A stretch of 64,000 nucleotides of DNA from assembly GCF_002234675.1 (NCBI RefSeq), contig NC_019870.2, positions 2,500,985 to 2,564,984 of the forward strand, read 5' to 3'. The notes under the pieces were generated by a model. The model searched no databases and was not told the DNA's origin. It worked only from the letters and a program-made list of their open reading frames with translations. A program made the translations under genes and the position numbers. Numbering within the stretch: position 1 is the first letter of the stretch; every line of letters starts with the position of its first letter. Below are positions 3,001 through 57,700 of the stretch, piece by piece. Source of the stretch: Oryzias latipes. Lineage: Eukaryota > Chordata > Actinopteri > Beloniformes > Adrianichthyidae.

Positions 3001-6000
3001 TCCTCACTTTAATCTGAACCTGATCTGACCTCCGTATTTTCAGCTGATGAGATTTCAGGATTTTCTTTCAGACTCCACCTGTTCCCGGCCTTTCCTCAGC
3101 AGAACCAGCTCCTGCTGCACCTCCCCGGCGTGGCTGGTGGCCTTGGCGACCTCACACCTCTCCAGGTCCCTCTCCACCAGCAGCTGCTCGATGTGCTGCT
3201 GCTTCTCCTTCAGCGCTTCCTGCAGCGCCGTGGTGCCGGAGATCTTACGGGCGTACCGGGCCGACGTCTCTGTGAGCTGGAGAGCGGCACAAGCGGCGTT
3301 GGCTGATGTCACCACACTCTGACGCCCTCAGCACACACCCTTAGGCAAATCGAGCTACGCCGCAAAATTACTTTTAACTATTTTTTTAAAAGGTAAAAAT
3401 TAAAAAAAATTAAAATGTGTGTTTCTTTTATTTAAAGTCAAACTCCAAAGGCTGCAGTGCTTCTGCTCTGAGTCTGGGCCTCACCAGTCCCGCCCGGCTG
3501 GGTTTGCCGCTGATGGAGGAGGTGGCGGAGCTGAGCGAGCTGATGGAGGAGGCGCTGGGACTCCTCCTGAGCATGGATCTCCTCCCTGACCTCATGGCCT
3601 TTGTGGGGGTGGTGCAGGGGAACCCGATCCGCGTCACCTTATGGACCGGTGCGAACAGGCCGAACCGGGGCAAACACTGGAAGTACCTGGAAGGAAAGAG
3701 TTTAACCAAATATTAGTGCATCCTTTTTTTTAGCTGAATTTGTTTTTTGTTTTGTTTTTTCAAAGAAAAGTCTTGATTTCCGTTGACTTTTTTTTCCTGT
3801 GTTTTTAAAATTGTACCTTTGTATTTGTAATTGTGCCTATTCTTTTGTTTTAATTTGGCATCTCTTGAGCATTTTGTGTGATTGTTGTGACACAAAAAAG
3901 TTGTGAATAAATTCAATAATCATTTTAAACTGAAGGCTGCAAGACGAAACAACATTTTGAGGCTAAAGTAGATTTTTTTATTCAGTTACTGAAGAGCAAT
4001 CAGTCGCATAAGAAAAGCACAGCTTTGACTAAATTCCTTTTCAAACTCTATTTTTCATGTTTGTGAAAGACCAACGGTCAAACTTAAACAATCACACAAT
4101 AGCAGCACAATTTGTAAGTTTTACTGTACTTTTTTCAAAATAAAATGTTTTCTTTATTTTCAGAAAGAAACACGTTTTTCAGTCTAGTGTGGGTTTTATT
4201 TAAACGTGTCTGCTGGTCGCCAAGCTTTGAATTGAGTTTCTTTTAATTTTTTTTTTTACTAATACTTAATTAGAAGTTCCATTTTTTCTTCTTACCTTCC
4301 TTTTATTCTGGAATTAAATTTTAACATTCAATACACATGAATGCTCTAATTTCCATAAGTGGCCAAATTATGTACAAATATAGTTTTTTCTACACTAATT
4401 GGGTAAAAAAACTGTCTTGACTGCATGTACTGTGTGAACCAAATGGAAAAATGGGTTAAAAATCTGCAACAAGGATGAAGAGATTCAACCAAACTTCCTG
4501 ATTCACGTTTTCATATGGAGTCAAATCACAATAAGTGAATGAAATATATTTAAATTTGAAATATTCTATTTTAAACTCAAAAGTGCACGTTGTACACTTG
4601 ACAAAAATATTGAAAATATATTTATTTTTTCATTACAAAATATTACCAAATTAAAAATAAACTTATTGGTAACAGCTTCAGATTCAGTTTTTGCATTAAC
4701 AAAATGAAAAAAACTGAATTAAATCTAAGTGACCAACAGACAAATCGATAGGGCCTATTTTATGTAAAATTGACTTTTAGAGCTTTTCAGAGTATTATAA
4801 TGTTCATTCTCTACAAAAAAACAACCCCAAATCGGTATTTTGATCTGTTCACGTATTTCTGAGTATTCCTCTAATAACCGGCTCTCTCCCAATCCATAAA
4901 AACAAGCGGGATCTCACATTGTGACATCACAATGTGAGGAACCGCCCCTTCCAGGAAGAGTCTGCGCTGTCAGCTCCGCCCCCAAGCAAACACACACACT
5001 CCCACTTTCTCCATGGAGCTAGCGGTGATCGGCTACACGCTTTCGTAAGGCTCCACAATATTCTCATCCATCTTTGCTAAAGTTCAGATGTGGTTTGTTT
5101 TCGTGGGAGAAACGCTGACCTGCTGCCGAGGCCGCCTCTAGGATGATGTCATGAAATGGGCGGCACCCACAAGGAAAGAAAGGCGGAGCCTCAGAGATCG
5201 AGTCGTCTTACTTCCGGGTTGGAAAAGAACTCATATTTAATAAAAAAACATGTTCTTTAGTGTTTCAAGGGTAGTATATTCTCATATATATGGATATAGT
5301 TTGCTCTGAAAGGCTAAAGCATAGCAGGATACAGACCCTTCAACTATTTCACCTGATGAACCTGAACACTACATTTCTTTAAACACACATGGTATATTCC
5401 CAAACAGTAAATTTACACAAAAAGTACATTCACACAGGTCCACAGACTTTTAGTCATTTTACAAGGAGAACAAACCAGCTTACCCCCACTTTTATATAGA
5501 ATATGTGAAATGATCTTTAGCTGTGATTTTTATTTGAACTTGAGACACTTTATCGGTCATAAAGTTCAAGAGTTAAAGCCCCATCATCTGGGAAATTTTA
5601 CACACCTAGGTGTGTCGGGAACCATGTGGTGGTTTAATGCTGAGTGTCCAGCAGGGAAGCATCGGGTCCCATTTTTAGAGTCTTTGGTATAGCCTGGATT
5701 TGAACTCACAACCTTCCAGGTCACAGGACGGACACTCTACCTCAAGGCCACTGAGCATGTCAGTATCCCTGTCACAATGGAGTGTAGATAAGAAAACCTT
5801 AATGTCGCAGCCTTTGGGTTGGTTGGCTGGAAAAATTGGAGCTTTTTGGCCGAAGTTGTGGTGATTCATTGGACAAAGTTGCCGTGTCGGCAAAAATGTG
5901 TGGGAATTGAAATGATCACAATGCGGCAAAATTCTGGAGGGACTTAAAGATCTGTGATTTCCTGTTTTTGAAAATTACAGGATTTGTTTCACTTTAAATG

Positions 6001-24600: not shown

Positions 24601-25177
24601 GGTATAAACGTAAAAAAAAGTGTAATTTCTCTATATGTTTATAATTTATTGACACCAAAAACAATACTTTATTTGTATTTATCATAATAGAAAGAATAAC
24701 ATAAATACTAATCAGTTTGATCTTTCTAAAGACTTAAGACCTGAGCTAAACAAACCCTTTATATTCTTAGATTTGAAGTCTGGATTGAGATCAGAGTGAT
24801 GGTTAGAGTGTTTCTTGCACATGTGAACAGATCAGGTGCAGCAGCAGGCGGTGCAGAGCAGCACGCAGAGAGAGGAGATCATCCGACTGAAGCAGGAGCT
24901 GCAGCTTCTTCACAGAGACGTGGCTCTCAGCGGTAAACAAACCCAGTCCTGACTCCTGTGATGCGTCTGTCGTCTAAAGTCAGCTGCAGGTCTGACTCCG
25001 GGTTTGCACACAAAGTTTATGGGGACTTTGCTTCTACTGTGTGGTAGAACAATAGTTATGATATTAATGGAACATCTAAACTGGGCATTAACCAATAAAT
25101 CCTTATCAAATGAATAATAAATACACTACATGGTCGAAAAAAGTAACATGGTGGACATTTTATGCTAAAGCAAACCA

Positions 25178-25208
<31 letters not shown>

Positions 25209-28200
25209 AACTTGTCCTGTCCAACAGCTAGGCAGACACATGAGAGCTGAGGGCCTCTTGGGTTGGACATATTTTACTTTAACAAGAGGGGTTATTAATC
25301 TTCAGACAAACCAAAGGTATGTCTGAATAAACCCCTTTTGTAATTGAGGCCAAACTTTATTAATTTCAAACATGTCTGAAAATCTTTGGTGTTGGACCGG
25401 ACGGAAAAGGAAAGAGGGGAAGAAGAAAGAGGGACGTTAGAGAGAGGGGGGGTAGGGGGTGATAATAGGAGGGGAAGGGGGATAAGACCATGAAGCAGCA
25501 TAAAGCAACAAGTTTACTGGTTGTTAATCATTATGGTAAGGTTCAAATGTAAAAAAAAAAAAAAAAAAAAAAAAGGGCGGAGCCTGTCCACACACACACT
25601 CAAATGTTATAAACACACCTGTTAGTTGCAAAAATGTCCACCTGTCGACATGTACACAAAACAGATAGTGTTCACACGCATACTTATGCCTTAAAACCAA
25701 CTAGTGTGAAATATTTCAGTCATTCAGTCTGTTGAGCCAACACCTGTGCTCAGGTGAGTGTTTATGTTCTTCTAAAATGGATGGTGGAACGTGAAAAGAA
25801 GGAGGGAGAGTGCCCAGCCATCCCCACCCCAAGACCCCCACCGCACCAGCAGCGGCAGCCGGATTCCCCCCAACACCACACGGGAACCGGCAGGGAACAA
25901 CCGCCGCCCGGGCGACCAAGCCCGCCACCCAGGCCAGGGCCAGCAGGGCCGCCGCAAGGCCCCCAGAGCCAGAGAGCAGGGAGGCATGGAGGGAAAGAGG
26001 GCGCCGCCCCAGCCCAACCAGGAGAGCAGCCCCCCCGCCGCGCCGGGAGAACCCAACGCAGGGCCCCACCGGAGAAGGACGCCCACAGCCCCAGACGAGC
26101 ACCCCACCACCACCCAGGAGTTCCGGGCATCCCCCCGCCCCAACCCCAGGTACGGGCCAGGACCCCCCAAGGGAGACCCACTCCGCACTCCAGGCAGCCA
26201 TCCGCCCGGCCCACGGTTGGTCCAGGGAGGAGCGAGGCAGGGGCCCGCCGCCCCCGCCCAGGAGGGGGGAACCCCGGGGAAAAAAGAGGGCCCACAAGGG
26301 GTGTTGTAAATATGGCCCGACCAGGCTCGGCCACAGTTGGAAATTTGGCGGGGCCCAGCACTCAGGAGCAAGGACCAGAACCCACCCCCCAGGGACACGA
26401 ACACCCCCGGCTCAGATGTAATGTGAACCCCCCCACCGCGCGGAGAGAGCACCGCCGGGCCCAGGAAGCCAGCACCCGGGGACACAGCCGCCGTTGCAAA
26501 GGGGCCCGTACCCCCCACCAGGGAAGAGGCAGGGGACAGATGGTCCTAGGTCCCACCTTCCTTGCAAAATGTGTGTGCGTGTATGTGTGTTTGAGAGAGT
26601 GTGTGTGTGCATGTGTGTGTGTTTATGTTGGGATGTATATATTGAGGGGGGAGGGGTGTGTGTACTAAGGGGGGTGCGATTAAAATTGGCGGGTAGGGTG
26701 CTAGGAGGACATCCGCTGCTTGCTGGCAGTGATGTCCAAGCACCCCCCCTACCAAGGGCCCTACATGTCTAAGGTGCAAATAAAACCGAAAGAGGGGGGG
26801 CCCACTCCATACGGCAACCACAGGAGGGGGGTCACTGCCTACTAAACCCCCCCCCCAAGGCTCATCGCAGGCTAAGCCCCCCACCCCCTCACCCTATTAT
26901 GAGGTTATATGAGGAAGGGGGTAAGTTGGGGACAGATGATAGACTGTCCCCCGGTGGTCAAACAGCCGTCCCCCGCCCCCCCCCCCCCCCAGCAAGGGGG
27001 CCAGGCCCACCCAGCCCCGGGGCCCCACCCCCGGAGGCGCAGACACCCCAGGCCCAGCACCACCACCCCCACACAGAGAGAGGGGAGCCAGAAAGCGCCG
27101 GCCCCCCCCGGAGCAAGCCCAGGCCCCCACCCCCAAACGCCGGCCCTAGAAGAGCTCTGGTCAGGCCTCGACGGGACCGAGGCAGCCAACCGGCCGGGGA
27201 AACCGCCGATGGCCTCAGCGGAGACCCCGACCCGTCAACCCCCCCTGCCCCGTACCAATAGTAGCCCCCCCCCTCCCCCAGAATGCCCCCCCACAGGACA
27301 GGGCCGACAAGACCCCCATCCCACCCCACCCCCAGACCCCGCAGCCGAAGCGGATGACACCCAGAGCGACCGGGGGCCCCAAGAGGGTTGTCCCGTCCCG
27401 CCCCAGAGCCAGGGAAGGGCCGATCCCAGCCCCAGGTGTAGACGGGAAGCCCATCCAGCGCCGGTGGGCCCCCCCCCCGAGCAGCGCCCCCCGCCAACCC
27501 CCCCCAGCACAGGCAAAGGGACCACCCCCCCAAGCCAAGCCAGACCACCACCCCACCCCCCCCACCACGCACCCCCACACCCAAGCCCAGAGGACCACGC
27601 AGCGCCCCAGGCCGCCCCACCCAGGCGCCGGACCCGACCCCCCGACCAACGGAGCCCCCACCACCCCCGGCCAGGCACCGGAGGCCCCGACCCCCACCCC
27701 GGCCCACGGCAGAAGGGCAAGGAGCAGCGACGACCATGCCCCCCCACCCCCTAAGTCACGGAGTTAGCTATGGGAGACCAGAGAGACCGAATTCTTTCAA
27801 AGTTACTTGAACTTTGGGCTGACATTTTTTCCAAGCTGATATGATCAAGCAGCAGATTTCTGTGTTGACTTATATTTATATTTTTTTTGCTTTTCCAATT
27901 TATTAAAATAGTTTTTTTAGCAATGCAAAGAGTTATGAAAATGATAGAGCCTAATCCTCCTTCTACATCGATGGCACTCATGTCACCAAGCACACAAAGT
28001 GACGGTGAAGCTGTGATTGAAACCTTAAGCCAGACTGATAGATCGGCACATACCTGCTGCCAGAGAGCCTGGACAGGCGTGCAGAACCATAGTGCATGCA
28101 TGTAATTGTCGGGTAGATTACTGTCACAGTGCTGACAAATGTCTGAGTTACTGAGACCCATCTTGAACATCCTCTGTCCAGTGTAGTAAATTCTGTGAAG

Positions 28201-31200
28201 AGTTTTGAAATGGATTAGCTGCAGATTTGGATTTTTTGTCATTTTAAAGGTGTTTAGACAAAGTTCTGACCAAAAACTTTCATCTGTGCTGATGCTCAAA
28301 TCCGCATCCCATTTTGTTGTCGGAAGTGAAATATTGTTATCTAAATTACATAAAAGTTTGTATATTTTGGAGAGAGTTTTATTCATTGATAAATTGATCA
28401 GAGTGGTAACTACATCTGGTAGCTTTAAATCGTTGTCTCTGTATTTAAACTTTTTAGTAATAATTGATTTAAGTTGCTGATATTCCAAGAAGTTATATAT
28501 TCCATGTTTGTCTTGAAGTTCCTGGGGAGTTATGAATCTTCTATCAATAATTATGTGCTCTAGTTGTTTTATGCCCCCTGCTTGCCAAGCTGGGAAGTGG
28601 ATAATTTTTTTGTTTATGAGGATGTCTGGGTTGTTCCAGATGGGTGTCATTTTGCACGGTTGAATTGATGATTTTGATATTTTGAGAAATTCCCACCAGG
28701 CTGTTAAAGTGGCATTTATATTAATACTTTTGAAACAATCCTGTTTTTTAACTATTTGACTAATAAATGGAAGATCTGACAGGTTGATCTTTCCACATAA
28801 CGCCTGTTCCAAGTCTAACCATGAGTTGGTTTCTGGATTATTTTTTAACCATTTTAAGATGTATTGTAATCTATTTGCAAGAAAGTAATTGTGGAAGTTA
28901 GGTAATTCTAATCCTCCACAGCTTTTTGCAGATTTTAAAGTTTTTAGACTAATTCTTGCAGGTTTATTGTTCCATAGAAAGCTTGATATGGATGAGTCTA
29001 ATGTTTTGAACCATTTTAATGGCGGTTGTGTGGGAATCATTGAGAAGAGATAATTAACTTTGGGTAAGATTTTCATTTTAACCGTGGCTACCTTGCCCAT
29101 AAGGGACAAAGGCAGGTTGGTCCAGCGTGTTAGGTCGTCCTGTATGTTTTTCAGTAATGGGGTGTAGTTTAGCAGCACCAGTTCTGATATTTTGGGGGAA
29201 AAATAAATACCTAGATATTTTATATTGCCTGATTTAACTGGTATTGTGAGTCCTTGCTCCGCATTACTGTTCAGTGGTAATAAAACAGATTTATTCCAAT
29301 TAATGGAATAGTCTGATATAGAAGAGAATTCATTAATGATTGTTGCCGTTTCATTTACAGAATGTATATTACTTAAAAACAGTAATATGTCATCTGCATA
29401 GAGACTAATTTTATGATGGCTGTGTTTGGTTTTAATTCCTTTAATACTCTCATTCTGTCTTATTGCTGCAGCTAGAGGCTCGATAAATATTGCAAAAAGA
29501 GAGGGGGAGAGTGGGCAACCCTGTCTAGTTCCTCTTCCAAGAAAAAACCTGTTGGAAGTCTGTTTATTAGTTCTAACTGATGCATTGGGGTTGTGATATA
29601 ATATTTTGATCCAATTGATGAATGATTCTCCAAACCCAAACTTATGGAGGGCAGCAATGAGGAACTTCCAATTTACTCTATCAAAGGCTTTTTCAGCATC
29701 CAGTGATAGTATAGTCATTTCCTGGTTTTTGATGGTGGCAAAGTCTATTATGTTAACGAGTCTGCGGACATTGTCATCCGAGTGTCTGCCTTTGATGAAT
29801 CCAGTTTGATCAAAGTCAATTATGTGAGGAGTGACTTTTTCTATTCTCTGTGCTAGTGCTTTGCAGATAATTTTTACATCTGCATTAATTAAAGAAATAG
29901 GGCGATAGCTTGAAGGACTCGTGGGGTCTTTGTCTGGTTTTAGAAGAAGGATAATGTTGGCAGAGTTCATGTTAGGTGGTAGAGATTGGCTTTCATTGAT
30001 AAATTTTACCGTTTTATAAAACGTTGGTGCCAGTTGTTCCCAGAATTCCTTATAAAACTCTGCAGGAAAGCCGTCGGGTCCTGGTGCTTTGCTGTTAGGC
30101 ATAAGTAACAGAGCTTCATGAAGCTCAGACAACGAGAGCGGAGAGTCTAAATTTGTGATTTGATCTTCGTTTAACCTGGGCAGGTTTATATTGTTGAGAA
30201 ATGAGTTGATGCTTTGTTCTGATGGATTGATCTGTGGAGTGTATAAGTTTTGATAAAAGTCTTTAAACGCATTATTAATTTTTACCGGGTCATGGGTGAC
30301 ATTCCCTGTTTGGTCCATAATCGAAGTGATTGTTGATTTTTCTTTATTAATTTTAAGCTGATTAGCTAGAAATTTGCCAGATTTATTTGAGTTTTCATAT
30401 CTTTCCAGTCGAAGCCTTTGTATCTGGAATTGTGTTTGTTTATTGATGATGTCATTTAACTGCAGCTTTAAATTTTTCAGGTCCCCCAGTATGTGTTCCT
30501 GTGCAGAAGCAGCATAAGCAGTCTCCAGAGTTTTTATTTTATTTCCTAATTCTAATAAATCTGCTTTCTCCTTGCGTTTTTTATGCGTTGAATAAGAGAT
30601 GATTTTCCCTCTCATGACTGCTTTTGCTGCTTCCCAAAGAATACTTGGTGATATTTCAGAAGTATCGTTGAATTCTAAGAAGGTTGCCCACTCTTTTTTA
30701 AAGAATTCAATAAATTCCTGGTCTTTTAACAGAGACGTATTAAACCTCCAGGTTGAACCCGAGGGTCTGGGTACTTCCCTTGAAATAGTAACAGAAACTG
30801 GTGCATGGTCACTGATAATAATTGGATGAATGTTGGAACTTTTAATTTCTTTCAAAAGGGAGTTACTGACTAATAAATAATCTAAACGAGATTGTGAATG
30901 GTGAACTGGAGAAAAAAAGGTGAACCCCTTAGTGCTTGGATGACATGAGCGCCAAGCGTCGCAGAGACCCAGATCATTCATGTACTGCTTTAGAATACTT
31001 GCAGACTGCCATGTACGCTGGTTTGCTGCTGTGCTGAGTCTGTCAAGTTCAGGGTCCAAAACAAGGTTGACGTCTCCTCCTATAATGATTGTGGAGTCAG
31101 AGTGAACTGAGAGTGAGGTGAAGAATCTGTGAAAGAAGGAAGAGTCGTCAACATTAGGACCATAGATGCTGGCGATGCAAAAGTCTTTATTCTGAATGGA

Positions 31201-34200
31201 TATATTAATGATTACAAATCTGCCTTCTGGGTCAGTAACTGTATCCTTATGAGTAAATGTAACATTTTTATTAATCAAAACTGCAACCCCTCTTTGTTTG
31301 GAGTTGAAACTGGCAGAATACATAGCTGGATACTGGGAACAGCACAGGAGATGACCAGCTGATAAAGATAAATGGGTCTCCTGCAGCAGAGCTATATCTG
31401 CTTTAAGATCATTCAGGTGATTTAACACTTTCAATCTCTTTGGCCCAGAACCAAGTCCACGCACATTCCAGCTAACGATGTTAAGACTGTTCATAGCTGT
31501 TCTAACCGGGAGAGTGCAAGGCTAAATAGTGCGTGTGCCCGTCCGTGTGCGCGTGCCCGCTGTGCGTACCTGCTACACTGACAAGCGCTATGCGTTGTGG
31601 GTGAACGTGTCTTGGCTATGAGCTGCATGTTATGTGCGTCCTGTGTGAGCCTAAGTGAGGTTTTTGCAGTTTATCAACGTGTGTGTGCGGGATCGCGTGA
31701 GCATGCTCTTATGTGCGCTAGTATGCGCGCGCGCCCGTTCCGTGCATAAATAAATACTCACCGTGGTTGCGTTGACTTTACCTGATTCACATATGAGGAG
31801 ATGGGAAGGGGGGGGGGACAAGAGAAAAGAGAGAGGGAAAGAGAAAAAACAAAAACAACGAAACAACAACAGAAACATGAATGTGAGAGAAAGAAAAAAC
31901 ACTTTTCCTGAGAGGTGTGGATTATTGATGATCCGATTATTTCCTAGTTAAATAAGTTTGCGGGTTTCTTCTGGGCAGCGCAGATGTCAGTGCGCCTCTG
32001 AAAGCCTTCAGCACAGCCAGGGTGTTACCTCTGGGTCCCGGAACAGCTTGCCATTCACAAAAAGTTTATCAACGGCAACCACCGCGCGTGCTCCAGCAGA
32101 CAGGTGCTTCCTCCTCAGCGGGAAGAGGATTTTCCGCCGGCGGAGGATCTCGCCTGGAAACTGATCATTCACGCTGTATTGTGTGTCTTTCAGCTCTCGC
32201 CCTCTGCTTTTTACCAGCACCTTTTGTTTATAATGTTCAAATTTAGCAACAATAGGACGGGGACGCTGATTGTCCGGCCTCTTTCCTCCGAGCCGGTGAA
32301 CCCTGTGGAAGGAGATCTTCTGGACTTCTTCCTTGGGGAGTTTCAGGTGGACCTCTATAAAGGACTTAACAATGTTCTCCGGGACTTCCCCTGCCTCTTC
32401 TGGAATCCCTGCGAACACTAGATTGTCCCTCATGCTCCTCGCCTGAAGATCCAGGAGGGTTTCCTTGATGGATCGGTTTTCCTCAGAGAGACGGGCGGTG
32501 TCGTGGCCCAAGATCTTCACGGTCTCTCTGAGGGCCTGGTTCTCCGCTGCGAGCTCCTGCACCTGCTGTTGGCTGAACTCCAGAGACTCTCGCAGACCTT
32601 GGAATTCCTTATGGAGGATCTCCAGCAGATTTAAACGGCAATCAAGGCTGGAGAGCCTTTTATCAATTGAATCCAGGATATCACTCATGTTGCTGCCTGG
32701 GGAGGAGGCAGCCCCCGGGGAGTCTTCGGGACGGTTGCGTTTGGTGGACGGAGTGGCGGTGTTGGATTTCTTCATGAGGCAGGTATTGAAACACTCGTCG
32801 ATGTAATTCTCCAGATCCTCCAGGTCCTCCAGGTCATCCAGGCTGGCAAATGCTTGACAAACTTTTTCAGATTTTTATTTTTTAAACTTTCTGGATTATT
32901 TAAATATGGCGGTGTAATTAAATAAATCAAAAATGTTTGTTCACAACTTACGCGCCGCCAAGTAAACTCACCACACTCCTCTCGTCGGCTCTCGCGATAC
33001 TACAGCATCACGTGCTCCCTCCCAAACCATTACTACTAGTGTGGGGAACAACCAGCTAATACAAAGTGACCACCAATGTGCACACATTAACCCTTATTTT
33101 ATAAAAAACTAAACTATCTTTTTTCCAACTGTAAAAAAGGCAACAGGGTCAGAACGTTATGCTTTATCCCATCAGGAAACGGCTCTAAAACAGAGAAAAT
33201 CAGAAAAAAACCGTACAGACTGTGTGTCTTAATGAGGCGTTTCCTTCCCAAAACATTGATCCATTCAGAGAAAAGACAGAACTGTTTTTAGAGGGACTTT
33301 TGTCAGATTATCAAGGTGGACAGGTGGATATGGGACTCACGGAACAGGTCCTTCTCTGCCTAAATCTGAAGGGAACTGTTGTGCCTGTTTTCACCAGGAG
33401 AGGGCGACAGCTGGAAAGATGAGCTGCTGGATCTGTGCCGGTCCAAACAGGAGCGCATCATGGCAGAACTCCACTGCCTCAGGCAGGTAACCCATTAACA
33501 GAAGACGCACGAAAACACACTATCAGAAACAATCAGCTTCCTAATTCACTTTAAAACAAAGGAGATGTCCCGCATCAGGCCACAGGGCGGCTTCCTCATT
33601 CCTCATTCCCGTGTCTGAGGGGAAATTCTGGTTCAGCAGCATTTTTCCTGCCTGCAGGTCTTCTGCTGCTCCAGTCTGTGTCACGGACAGAGGCGGTTAA
33701 AAGTTAGCTCAACTCATTTTGGATGGCTTAGATATTGTTTTGATTTTACTCTAAACTTTCTGAAAAAGAAAGTCAACGTTGTTCAAAAGTTTCAGTTAAA
33801 ATCATCCATTATTATCCCGTCATGACACATTCATGAAGAAAACATCTGATTTGTTCCTAAAAAAAAACACCTTTGACAGGTTTGAGCACCACAGTCAGGA
33901 AATGTTCCCAAAAGATTCTCCTTGCACAAACCAAAAGCAGCCTACGGAGCCCCCAAAGGGACATTCAAGAAGAAAAATTAAAGTAATTAAAAAAAAGGTG
34001 TGTTGCTAACTGGTGCCCACCTGTAGCAGGTGGGAACCAGTTCCTTCTGCGCACCTGTTAGTAACTGGTGCCCACCTGTAGCAGGTGGGCACCAGTTCCT
34101 ACCTGCTACATGTGTACCAGTTACTAACAGGTGCGCAGTAGGAACTGGTTCCCACCAGTTAGTAACTGGTTCCCACCTGCTGGTTCCCACCAGTTACTAA

Positions 34201-37200
34201 CTGGTGCGGACCAGTTCCTACTGCGCACCTGTTAGTAACTGGTGCACACCTGTAGCAGGTGGGAACCAGTTACTAACTGGTGCACACCAGTTAGTAACAG
34301 GTGCGTGGGAACCAGTTCCGACCTGCTACATGTGAACCAGTTCCTACTGCATACCTGTTAGTTACTGGTGCACACCTGTAGCAGGTGGGAACCAGTTCCC
34401 ACCTGCTACATGTGAACCAGTTCCTACTGCATACCTGTTAGTAACTGGTGCACACCTGTAGCAGGTGGGAACCAGTTACTAACTGGTGCGAACCAGTTCC
34501 TACTACGCACCTGTTAGTAACTGGTGCACACCTGTAGCAGGTGGGAACCAGTTACTAACTGGTGCGAACCAGTTCCTACTACGCACCTGTTAGTAACTGG
34601 TGCACACCTGTAGCAGGTGGGAACCAGTTACTAACTGGTGCGAACCAGTTCCTACTACGCACCTGTTAGTAACTGGTGCACACCTGTAGCAGGTGGGAAC
34701 CAGTTACTAACTGGTGCGAACCAGTTCCTACTACGCACCTGTTAGTAACTGGTGCACACCTGTTAGTTGTCTGTTTTTTTTGTTGAAATTTTTTTTTTTT
34801 TAATTGTCCTGTCCAACAGCTGGGCAGACAGATGAGAGCTGAAGGCCTCTTGTGTTGGACATATTTTACTTTAACTCTATTTGAATTTTTTTTCTCCTTC
34901 AATATTTTTTAGGGGCTCCGTAACAACATTTTTTTTTGTTTGCATTGTCCAGGTGTGTGAAAATCAGAGGCAGGAGCTGCAGCTTCTACATCTGAACCAG
35001 GGAAGAGCTCCCGAAGCTCTGAGGCAGAAGACCAGTGAGAGGTGAAGCAAAACGGCAGACGGCGTGAGGTTTCACGCTACACAGTAACCCGCAGATGAAG
35101 CAAATTCTCTTTTAGGTTGAAATAACCTCAACTAGCATCCAGATGAGAAGACGATTAAGACGCAACTATGTCTGAAGAGTTTTTAGAATAAAATGCATCC
35201 AAAGTCAAAACATTCAAATGATTTCTGCTATAAATTTTGGCTTTTGTTTTTTTTAAGTCCACAGCTAAAATCAGAGGAAGCTTTAAATCCTTTGTGTTTT
35301 TTTCTGCATCCACCTTATTTAGCTAATAATGCATTTGATCTGCAGGAACGGCTTATTGATTTCCTTTTCATAAAATCCTGTGATCGTTCTTGATTTGCTG
35401 CTTTTTTGTGTCAAATGCTTGAGGTAATTTTAGCATCTATAGCGGTTCAGCTTTTTAAAAAAAAAACTGCTTTTAACGAGTTCTTGTGGCATTTCCTGAT
35501 GATGACGGGCAAATACTATATTTGACGTCATACGTTTATTTTAATTAGTTTAGAACAGACGTTTTTTTAACAGTACGGTAAATTTAACTTTTTATTTATA
35601 TTTTCAATGCTTTTCTCGATACTCTTTTAGTTTGTTTAGCTGATAAAACCTGTAACGGAGCTACGTTTAGCAGCTTATTGTCATTTATTGTTGGCATTCT
35701 GCAGCATTTATAATGTTTTTTAATTGATGTAGCACTTTAATCAACAGTTTCATGATTTAATTTGAGCATTTAAGTACTCTTCAGCGATGTTTTATGTCTT
35801 TATTTTTAGCTTCCATTAACAAATTTTGTTTTTAGTTTCCATTTGAAAGTTTTAACTTTGTTCTTTTAGCTCTCTGAACCTTTTTAGCCAAGATAACTTT
35901 AGGTTTTTGTGAGCTTTGTTTTCAGCATCTCTTAAATGAAATTAAACTGAAACGGGCACACTTTGACTCGGAAAGTAGAAAAAAAGCCTTTTTATAGATA
36001 ACCTTTGCCATTCTATGGAGAAAAATCCACAAACAAGGAAAGAAATACGTTTATTGTCTTTACATAAAAACTTACAATTAAAAATTAAAGTAAATCAGTC
36101 ATTAATGGGTCCTTTAACATTCCATTCTTTCACCTCAAACACAGATTTTGTGAAGAAACTTAAGACATTTCATCGGTTATTTTTACAAATGAGCTCTTCT
36201 AAAAATTTTAAAACGAGTAAAAGTTTGAAAGCATGACAATATAATTGACAGAAGTAACATGTTTTTGTGTCCCAGCCTCGGGGAGCCGACGTGTAAATGT
36301 GTAAACCATCAGTCGCCTTCATCGCTGGGAGGGAAAACGCCTCCACCTGTGCAGGATCCTCCTTACCTGACACAGGTGAGACACAAAATCCCCGTCACAA
36401 CTCACTCTAAACGTTTGATAGGAGTTTTAGAAAAACTGAAACATTTAAGTCATTTGTGATCTGATAAAAGGGTCAGAACCATAAACCTAAAGATTTGTAT
36501 CATTGTCTTTTACTGTGCATGTAGATGTGCTTTTATTGTGGAAAAACCCAAATCCTTCATTAAAGATGATCACTCTGTTGTGTCGTTGACACTTTGAGAC
36601 GCTGCATGTGGTGAAAGTAGGCTGACACGGAGAGCTAATTTGTTAAAAAGCTTAAAAAATAGAAATCAGAAGATCCTGTTTGGTTTAAATTGAATTATTA
36701 TTACTTGTATTTTTGTGTATTTATTGTATTTTTGTGTATTTGTTTATATACATTGACTAATATGTGAAAAGTATAGTGATAGGTTTAAATAAACTTTTCA
36801 AACATGTATTTTTTTGTGTTCAGTCTGACTTTATTTATTTTGTGTTTTATTTTATTGGACTATGTTTTATTGTTCTACACGTTTGAAATAAATCTCAAAA
36901 TTGAAGACAGGGTAGACGACAAAGTAAGAATTTAATTTGTTTCGCTGTATAAATACTTTTACTCTTACATCTAATTCAGACGTTTTTTTAACATTAAATC
37001 GTTTTTTCTGAGTTTACTCAACTTTTAGCAAAGTAATTATTTTATTTGTGGACCTGTCTCCTTTTTGGAAGATTTAAAAACTCAAAACAGAAAAAGTGAA
37101 GAAAAAAATAGGTGGAAAAAGCTGCTTTCTGGAAATTCACTCATTTTCACATCTTTTATGCACATTTTGCTGATTTTCCATGTATGAAATTTCAATGTAC

Positions 37201-54701: not shown

Positions 54702-57700
54702 ATGATGGAGGACGCCGGCTCGGCCCTGGAGAAGAACGTGGCTGACCTGACGGTGATGGACGTGTACGACATGGCCGCGGTGGTGGGTCAGGAGTTCGAG
54801 CGGATCATAGACCAGTACGGCTGCGAGGCTCTGTCCCGCCTGATGCCCAAAGTGGTTCGGGTTCTGGAGATCCTGGAGGTGATGGTGAGCCGCAGAATGA
54901 GTCCGGAGACCGAGGAGCTGCGGCTGGAGCTGGACCGGCTGCGGATGGAGCGGCTGGAGCGGCTGGAGAAGGAGAAGCGGCACCGACAGGTCAGGACGCA
55001 CCTGAACGCAACGCGCGCGCACGCGCACGAGTCCACCTCCACTCCAGCCGGAGATGTTAAAGGAAGCACACTATGGAGTTAATGATGCAGTCTGTGAAGT
55101 TTTTATGCAGAACTTTAAGTCGATGAAAACAAGCTTCACTGATTTTGACGTCACAAGCTGACGTCATTGTGGAAAATCCAACCTCCAGATCTCTAACCCC
55201 GACCACATCCAAAACATTAAAAAATTCTGCTGTTTAAATTTTATTAGAGCTCAAATTTTTGCATTATGTGGGGCGTGTTTTTGTTTGATTGGCATGTGGG
55301 TGGAGCCAATAAAGCTATATCCTTTGCCACGCCCCGCCTACACGATGCTGTGTCCGAATGGCGCTCCATGTTGGGCGTTCCTCATTTTGTGTGCTGTCCG
55401 AATCCACAATTCCAAATCCAGTGCCCTAAAATTTCCCAGAATCCTCTGCGAAAAACCAGTCTGTGGCGATGCTCACTAACTAGATCGGCGAATATAGACC
55501 ACAATGCATTGCATTGGAGCAATTTTTGCGCGAAATTTTTTTTTGTAAATAAATCATTCACATTTTCATCATCAGAAGACGTGGATTCATAAATAGTCGT
55601 CGTAAAATGCTCGTATTTGTTAGGTTGTTATTTCAGGCAACCAAATTGCCGTTTAAAAACAAAATCAGCGAGTGTGGCGTTTGAATCGCTTTTAAAATCC
55701 AGAGCACAAGAGAGTTTTTTGGTTACTAGTAGGCGAGGGAATTCATACGTAGTCCGGTTCATGTTTGCAGTGTGTTAAAGCTTGGCTTTTCAATGTCTCT
55801 ATGGCAACGACTCTGGCCAATGAGGAGTGAGCTTGTTGGAAGGCCACACCCCTAACACTCGAAACCAGGCTACACAAAAACTGTCAATTAAATGTTTCGA
55901 ATGTTGGAAGCCAGCAGGCTCCTCCTACTTTAATTGAGGCATCTGATTGGTCAGTTTTGAACTTGAACTACAAAAAAAAGAAAAAAAAAGAGGATTATCC
56001 AGAAGATGTTTACAAAATAGAATGACTGAGTAACAGCTGTTTGTATCTCTATAGAATCTGTGAGATTTTGGGTTTCTGGAGCCACTTCCTGTTTGGAATG
56101 CCAGGGGGCGGGGCCACAAACGAACAAAGCCTCAGGAAATATTCATTCGTTCATTCATTCTTTTACAGTAATTTACAAAGATTGTTGACATTAAAAAAAC
56201 AAACAACATAAATTTTGAGAGGATTTCTTCCAACTCTCTATTTAATTAGTAAAACTAGATATAAACGTCTGTAGAGTTCCAAACAGAAGTTGCACCTTTA
56301 TTGTTTATTTTAAGGAAAATGTTTAAAATGAAATATTATTACAAATTGACTTTTAAATTGAAGTCAGAAAAACTGCAGCCTTATTTATGTGGAATGTGTC
56401 TTAAGATCCGTCTTGAATTTTAATGGGATTAAATATTTTTTGTTTCTGTGAAAAAAACAAAACCGTCACAAACTCGACAGAGTTTCTGATCTAAATCAGA
56501 AACTACCAGCAGACCATGATGGGATTTTAAAAAGCCAAAGATGAATAAAAAAAATAATAATAATAATTAAAATAAGGCAGTTGTTTTACAAACATAAACC
56601 CCCATTCTTGATGTCTGGAGCGAACATCTGTTTTTGTGAAGATTCACAGACTTTTATTTTGAAGGAAACGTATCATTTCCTGTTTTCCCTAAAAAGAATG
56701 AATGAAAACTTTTCACCCTTTTTTATTAAGTGGATCACAGCAGAATCAGTCAGATTTTCACGGCTCCAAATCCGATCTTGGTTGTTTGTGGATGTGGCGG
56801 GCGGGTCGGCGGGCCGACGCCCACAGCTATAAACAGCTTCAGAGGTCAGCCTCTCGTGACCGGGTCACTCGTGACCGCCGTGAGAGGAAACTCTGAGCTG
56901 CCGGGGAATTTCTCACCAACGATGTCAGCAGGAAGGGGAGGAACGTCCCACGGGTCCTGAGAGGCGGAGCAGAAGTTCCTTTAACGCCGAGTCATGGCGT
57001 GGACGGCTTCTGCAGGTTAAACATCAATGAAGGATCAAAAAGACACGTTTGCTTTGAAAAAAAAACATACTTCCTGTTTAAAATAAAAAGATTTTTCTTC
57101 CATAGAGTGTTATATTCAGTTAAAGTGGGGCTTTTTAAAACATTTTCCTATGTCTGAGGCTTTCATGGGAGCAGCTTCAGGTCAGTGTCGAACCCTCAAC
57201 CCCGTGTGGAACGTTTTTATAGAAACTGTGGAAAACGTCGTAAAAGGTTGGCGTTGGTGACTCTTTCAGGTCCAGCGGTCTCTTCCCTCCATACATGTCT
57301 GTAAATGTTTCCTGATTTCCTGACTTTAATGATTCCACACTTTACTGTCAGCATCAAAGCTTTGAACTCTGACCTGAAAACACTGTAAATGAGACCTGGG
57401 CTGAGTGACCCCGCCCCCCCATGGCGTTCCAAACAGGAAGTGGCTCCAATAATCCAAAACCCCATCGACTTCTGTAGAGAACTGAACCGCTGTTACTGCA
57501 TCAGAAGAACCATGTCTGCTCACTTTATTGATCTTGATAATCCCCTGTTTGTTCTTCATATTCTTGCTGTAGTTCGTTATAAACGGACCAATCGGACGTC
57601 TCAATTCAAAGTAGGTGGAGCCTGCTGCCCACCCAATATTTGAAACATTTCAGCTGTTTTCTCGTGGCTCGCCTTCAAGTTGTGGGGGTGTGGCCTTCCA

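Follow-up and report, generated by a model that had tools for sequence, protein, structure and literature searches.

Does the apparently complete LINE carried by this locus represent a recent insertion, and could it still serve as a source of new copies? In the window, that is, the whole 64,000-nucleotide stretch of Oryzias latipes DNA that was analysed, the sequence holds an L1-clade LINE of 7,840 bp on the minus strand (33022 to 25183), and the boundaries given in the original prediction are exact to the base. It is almost certainly a full-length L1-clade non-LTR retrotransposon that was inserted recently by target-primed reverse transcription, antisense in an intron of a coiled-coil gene. 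The element is flanked by a perfect 12-bp target-site duplication, CAAACCATTACT, with one copy on the poly(A) side (25171-25182) and the other at the 5′ end (33023-33034), and no further copy occurs on either strand of the whole window. The longest word common to the 30 bp outside each end of the LINE is likewise 12 bp, a length reached by none of 2000 random pairs of equal separation. If the T at 25182 is assigned to the duplication, the poly(A) tail, which reads as poly(T) on the plus strand (25183-25208), counts 26 A. Together with open reading frames and a match to human ORF2p, these exact ends bear out what had been proposed, namely a structurally complete, recent L1 with a perfect duplication and a poly(A) tail.

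Established L1 biology suggests how such an arrangement would have come about. ORF1p would coat the LINE RNA, the ORF2p endonuclease would nick the plus strand at TTACT/ACTA, the reverse transcriptase would use the nick to prime on the poly(A), and the 12-bp duplication would arise when the second strand was joined. The L1 endonuclease consensus is TTTT/AA, and the putative nick site fits it only in part, which counts against the proposed insertion. Also counted against it is the position of the single AATAAA in the 3′ UTR, which begins 153 bases before the poly(A), coupled with the absence of ATTAAA from that region.

The intron that holds the element spans 8,465 bp on the plus strand (24933-33397), with GT and AG at its ends and flanking exons that join in frame. 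Specifically, the stretch that ends at 24932, once joined to the exon at 33398-33486, encodes QQQAVQSSTQREEIIRLKQELQLLHRDVALSGEGDSWKDELLDLCRSKQERIMAELHCLRQ, a product which we take to resemble CCDC62; two candidate donors were tried for this second exon, and the donor at 33487 reads GTAACC. Without the LINE and one copy of the duplication the intron would measure about 613 bp, and the distance from the duplication to the exon downstream of it is 363 bp.

The assignment to the L1 clade follows from ORF2 (27751-31494, minus strand, read from 31494 to 27751), which encodes 1247 amino acids without an internal stop. It matches human L1 ORF2p (PDB entry 8sxt) over residues 4-1170 with an E-value of 2e-167, and the Pfam domains RVT_1 (E 1.1e-41) and Exo_endo_phos (E 2.5e-17) are both recognised. 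It carries NVRGLGS at position 10, QETHL at 38, GGDVN at 139, RLDYLL at 203, SDHAP at 228, SYRPISL at 529, DAEKAFD at 599, GTRQGCPLSP at 655 and YADD at 699; the endonuclease and reverse transcriptase motifs, with their presumed catalytic residues, align with those of human L1 ORF2p. Near the C-terminus, at residue 1120, lies a CX2CX9HX4C arrangement, the C-terminal CCHC motif expected of the L1 clade, and zf-RVT is matched with an E-value of 4.7e-4, under the Pfam gathering score. Among PDB and Pfam entries, in which the other non-LTR reverse transcriptases matched by ORF2 are those of R2 elements, ORF2 thus combines an APE-type endonuclease with a reverse transcriptase closest to that of L1, as the clade is defined. 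The YADD motif, where human L1 has FADD, would fit a member of the Tx1 group instead of L1 proper. Such an origin is considered unlikely. The extent of the match to human ORF2p speaks against it without being decisive, since Tx1 was not among the sequences compared; the single intronic site also gives no sign of site specificity, which one site could not reveal.

With L1 proper as the preferred assignment, ORF1 (32008-32775, minus strand, read from 32775 to 32008) occupies the expected place upstream of ORF2 and encodes 255 amino acids, again without an internal stop. Its relationships are harder to trace. No Pfam family is matched at the curated cut-off, the best hit being a coiled-coil family with an E-value of 0.0038, and PDB gives no convincing match (best E 0.047). 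The C-terminal 141 amino acids match no Pfam family and neither an RRM nor a CTD, with a best PDB E-value of 0.88, and this part is similar by eye to what we take to be the corresponding part of L1 ORF1p. In its N-terminal half ORF1 has the look of a coiled coil: weak matches to unrelated coiled-coil families, all under the Pfam cut-off, are found, and the heptad score, calculated on the frame extended upstream to 288 amino acids, is equalled in 15 of 500 shuffles. The prediction of two intact ORFs with their motifs holds, with caveats that concern the domain matches of ORF1 and its start. The true start of ORF1 is uncertain because its ATG stands in the context ACCTGCCTCATGAAG, presumably a weak one, and because the frame is open for 33 codons further upstream (32776-32874) through acidic, coding-looking sequence with a DLED repeat.

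This upstream extension lies in the 247-bp 5′ UTR (32776-33022, minus strand), which also contains CACGTG, TCTCGCGA and AATATGGCGG. The latter two words each occur once in the window and CACGTG at six places, and promoter roles for all three are putative. An out-of-frame upstream ATG can be seen by eye in the 5′ UTR, where it begins a short frame, and the TGA that closes this frame overlaps the ATG of ORF1. Between the two ORFs lies a spacer of 513 bp (31495-32007, minus strand), in which CAGGTAAAG was seen by eye to follow a long pyrimidine tract; these are possible splice signals.

How recent the insertion may be can be approached through the reading frames. On the actual codons, and with transitions and transversions at an assumed ratio of 2:1, stop-creating changes make up 2.8% of substitutions in ORF1 and 3.8% in ORF2. 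If indels are further assumed to occur at a tenth of the rate of substitutions, a divergence of 0.5% is enough to bring the chance that both ORFs are still open down to 5%, whereas without indels the same chance is reached at 1.8%. Because both frames are open, the sequence suggests a neutral divergence of about 0.5% or less since insertion under these rates. The estimate is a bound on decay since insertion and no demonstration of activity.

The LINE looks able to encode its own copying machinery, as is ordinary for L1, and this copy may itself still be able to move. That a young, complete-looking copy is nonetheless dead, through loss of the ORF1 start that its family has, missense damage or intronic silencing, is a serious possibility, to which we give somewhat less than an even chance. 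The presumably weak ATG context and the additional open, acidic and coding-looking codons upstream of it speak for a lost start, and set against inactivation are the presence of every ORF2 motif searched for and the 1,502 codons of ORF1 and ORF2 without an internal stop. As found, the value of the element is only that of a well-delimited candidate source L1, which would be easy to clone or genotype because its ends are complete, both of its ORFs are present and the empty site is clear.

The preservation of the copy had been presented as something that sets it apart, on the grounds that L1 copies in fish are thought to be for the most part truncated or decayed. The first half of this argument stands to the extent that a lizard can speak for it: in the excerpts drawn on here, 170 of the 806 L1 copies counted in the published genome of Anolis are full-length and about 40% of the polymorphic insertions are complete, so that most L1 copies are truncated (PMC5389967). 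The second half does not, since complete young copies are common. The same excerpts describe the LINE families of fish, amphibians and reptiles as usually consisting of few, very similar and recent copies (PMC5389967), and more than 20 L1 lineages are reported to be active at once in zebrafish and Anolis (PMC5872511); from the two together, a complete young copy is to be expected. The element is therefore a complete, recent LINE-1 copy whose intactness is expected for L1.

What is mildly unusual is the 3′ region, which combines a long, G-rich 3′ UTR with a predicted structured 3′ end. Including the poly(A), the 3′ UTR extends over 2,568 bp (25183-27750, minus strand). Over the first 1,970 bp, G makes up 40% of the element strand, compared with 16% in ORF2. 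The composition shifts abruptly at the ORF2 stop, and a run of 24 T on the element strand lies not far past the other side of the block; both might indicate that a repeat of separate origin is nested within the L1. This is unlikely, however, as the G-rich block begins immediately at the ORF2 stop and no duplication around it was noticed in passing among the 20 of 38 direct-repeat families listed. The G-quadruplex motifs of the 3′ UTR, seven on the sense strand and none on the other, follow from composition and no claim is made that they are selected. Enrichment was rejected because dinucleotide shuffles give as many: over 200 shuffles of the whole 3′ UTR the mean is 4.91 and the highest count 11, and for the G-rich part alone the seven motifs compare with a shuffle mean of 7.76. 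The T run itself (25551-25574, minus strand) is located upstream of the poly(A) tail at a distance of about 340 bases; it is complementary to the tail and could pair with it in the RNA.

The 3′ end proper (25209-25356, minus strand) is predicted to form two stem-loops, with a terminal stem TGTCCAAC/GTTGGACA. When compared with shuffles, the 148 nt that immediately precede the poly(A), a length picked after the folds of nine lengths had been viewed, give a z of -2.90, and 2 of 200 shuffles are equally stable; 146 nt taken from the inter-ORF spacer give 0.94. The terminal hairpin alone (75 nt) was discarded as a structure that stands out, with a z of -1.19 and 29 of 200 shuffles equally stable.

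A second, 5′-truncated copy of the LINE's 3′ end, with a short poly(A) of its own, lies elsewhere in the window (34801-34875, minus strand). In matching orientation it is 94.3% identical to the LINE over 88 columns (34789-34875), with four differences in the 72 columns preceding the tail. Its hairpin gives a z of -1.51, with 17 of 200 shuffles equally stable, and the 8-bp terminal stem is the same in both copies, which proves little with two sequences and no compensatory change between them. This sibling, about 94% identical, is the single relative seen in the window, where no near-identical copy of the LINE was seen and, by tblastn, no other ORF1- or ORF2-like stretch. The lack of a near-identical copy there, like the missing domain matches and the uncertain start of ORF1, weighs against the main reading. 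A tandem array with a 76-bp unit occupies 34001-34763 (5.6 copies with 96% matches at 34334-34763); it is built of inverted ACCAGTTACTAACTGGT-like words and ends about 25 bp from the truncated 3′ end. Elsewhere in the window lie two pairs of dispersed inverted repeats, 4780-5185 with 58514-58111 (77% identical) and 55798-56117 with 57739-57405 (74% identical), which are perhaps older mobile elements.

One could imagine that the two stem-loops next to the poly(A) act as a handle and that a vertebrate L1 has here retained stringent recognition of its own structured 3′ end. We consider this improbable, and know of no SINE partner that shares the tail of this LINE. Stringent recognition has been proposed by Ohshima as the ancestral state of L1 in green plants, and a monocot L1 lineage is reported to have a stem-loop with compensatory changes; according to the portion of that work drawn on here, only three SINEs with L1 tails stand against over 800 L1-clade LINEs (PMC3747384). 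A conserved stem-loop in the 3′ UTR of human L1 has already been proposed (PMC5135761, likewise in excerpt). It would be of interest to have a vertebrate L1 that depends on a structure of this kind, and if the structure were needed for reverse transcription, the change from stringent to relaxed recognition in L1 would become testable in a vertebrate; here it is a lead only.

Relatives were sought in prokaryote, phage, plasmid and viral DNA at limited sensitivity, and no L1 or Tx1 relative was found in these collections. Two phage and 12 plasmid records were matched, 13 of the 14 in the endonuclease part only and one in the reverse transcriptase part, and seven of them are annotated as exonuclease III. 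Scans of contigs, which used few exact peptides or bases and so reach close relatives only, gave either no pattern match or 35 stretches in viral contigs, none confirmed by tblastn, and 11 plus 247 candidate stretches in genome contigs, again with none confirmed. Rfam returned no match at gathering scores, and no tRNA gene was found. A literature search of partial coverage returned, among the matches listed, no description of this LINE or of any L1 from fish whose 3′ UTR is of this kind.

The order of the ORFs, the poly(A) end and the duplication are those of L1 in general. Human LINE-1, as seen in the ORF2p structures 8sxt, 8uw3 and 9k6g, is alike in the domain order and motifs of ORF2, but the 247-bp 5′ UTR, the 513-bp spacer and the 2.57-kb 3′ UTR set this LINE apart from it. 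Fish L1 families are exemplified by Swimmer 1. In base composition ORF2 (35% A, 28% T) is AT-rich, as is reported of fish L1 families in the excerpt drawn on here (PMC7140322). A further likeness is found in the lizard study, where the L1AC16-20 elements of Anolis have a short 5′ UTR of about 230 bp, near that of the present LINE; complete elements of this type, however, measure 5 to 5.5 kb (PMC5389967), whereas the medaka copy reaches 7.8 kb, with 2.57 kb contributed by its 3′ UTR.
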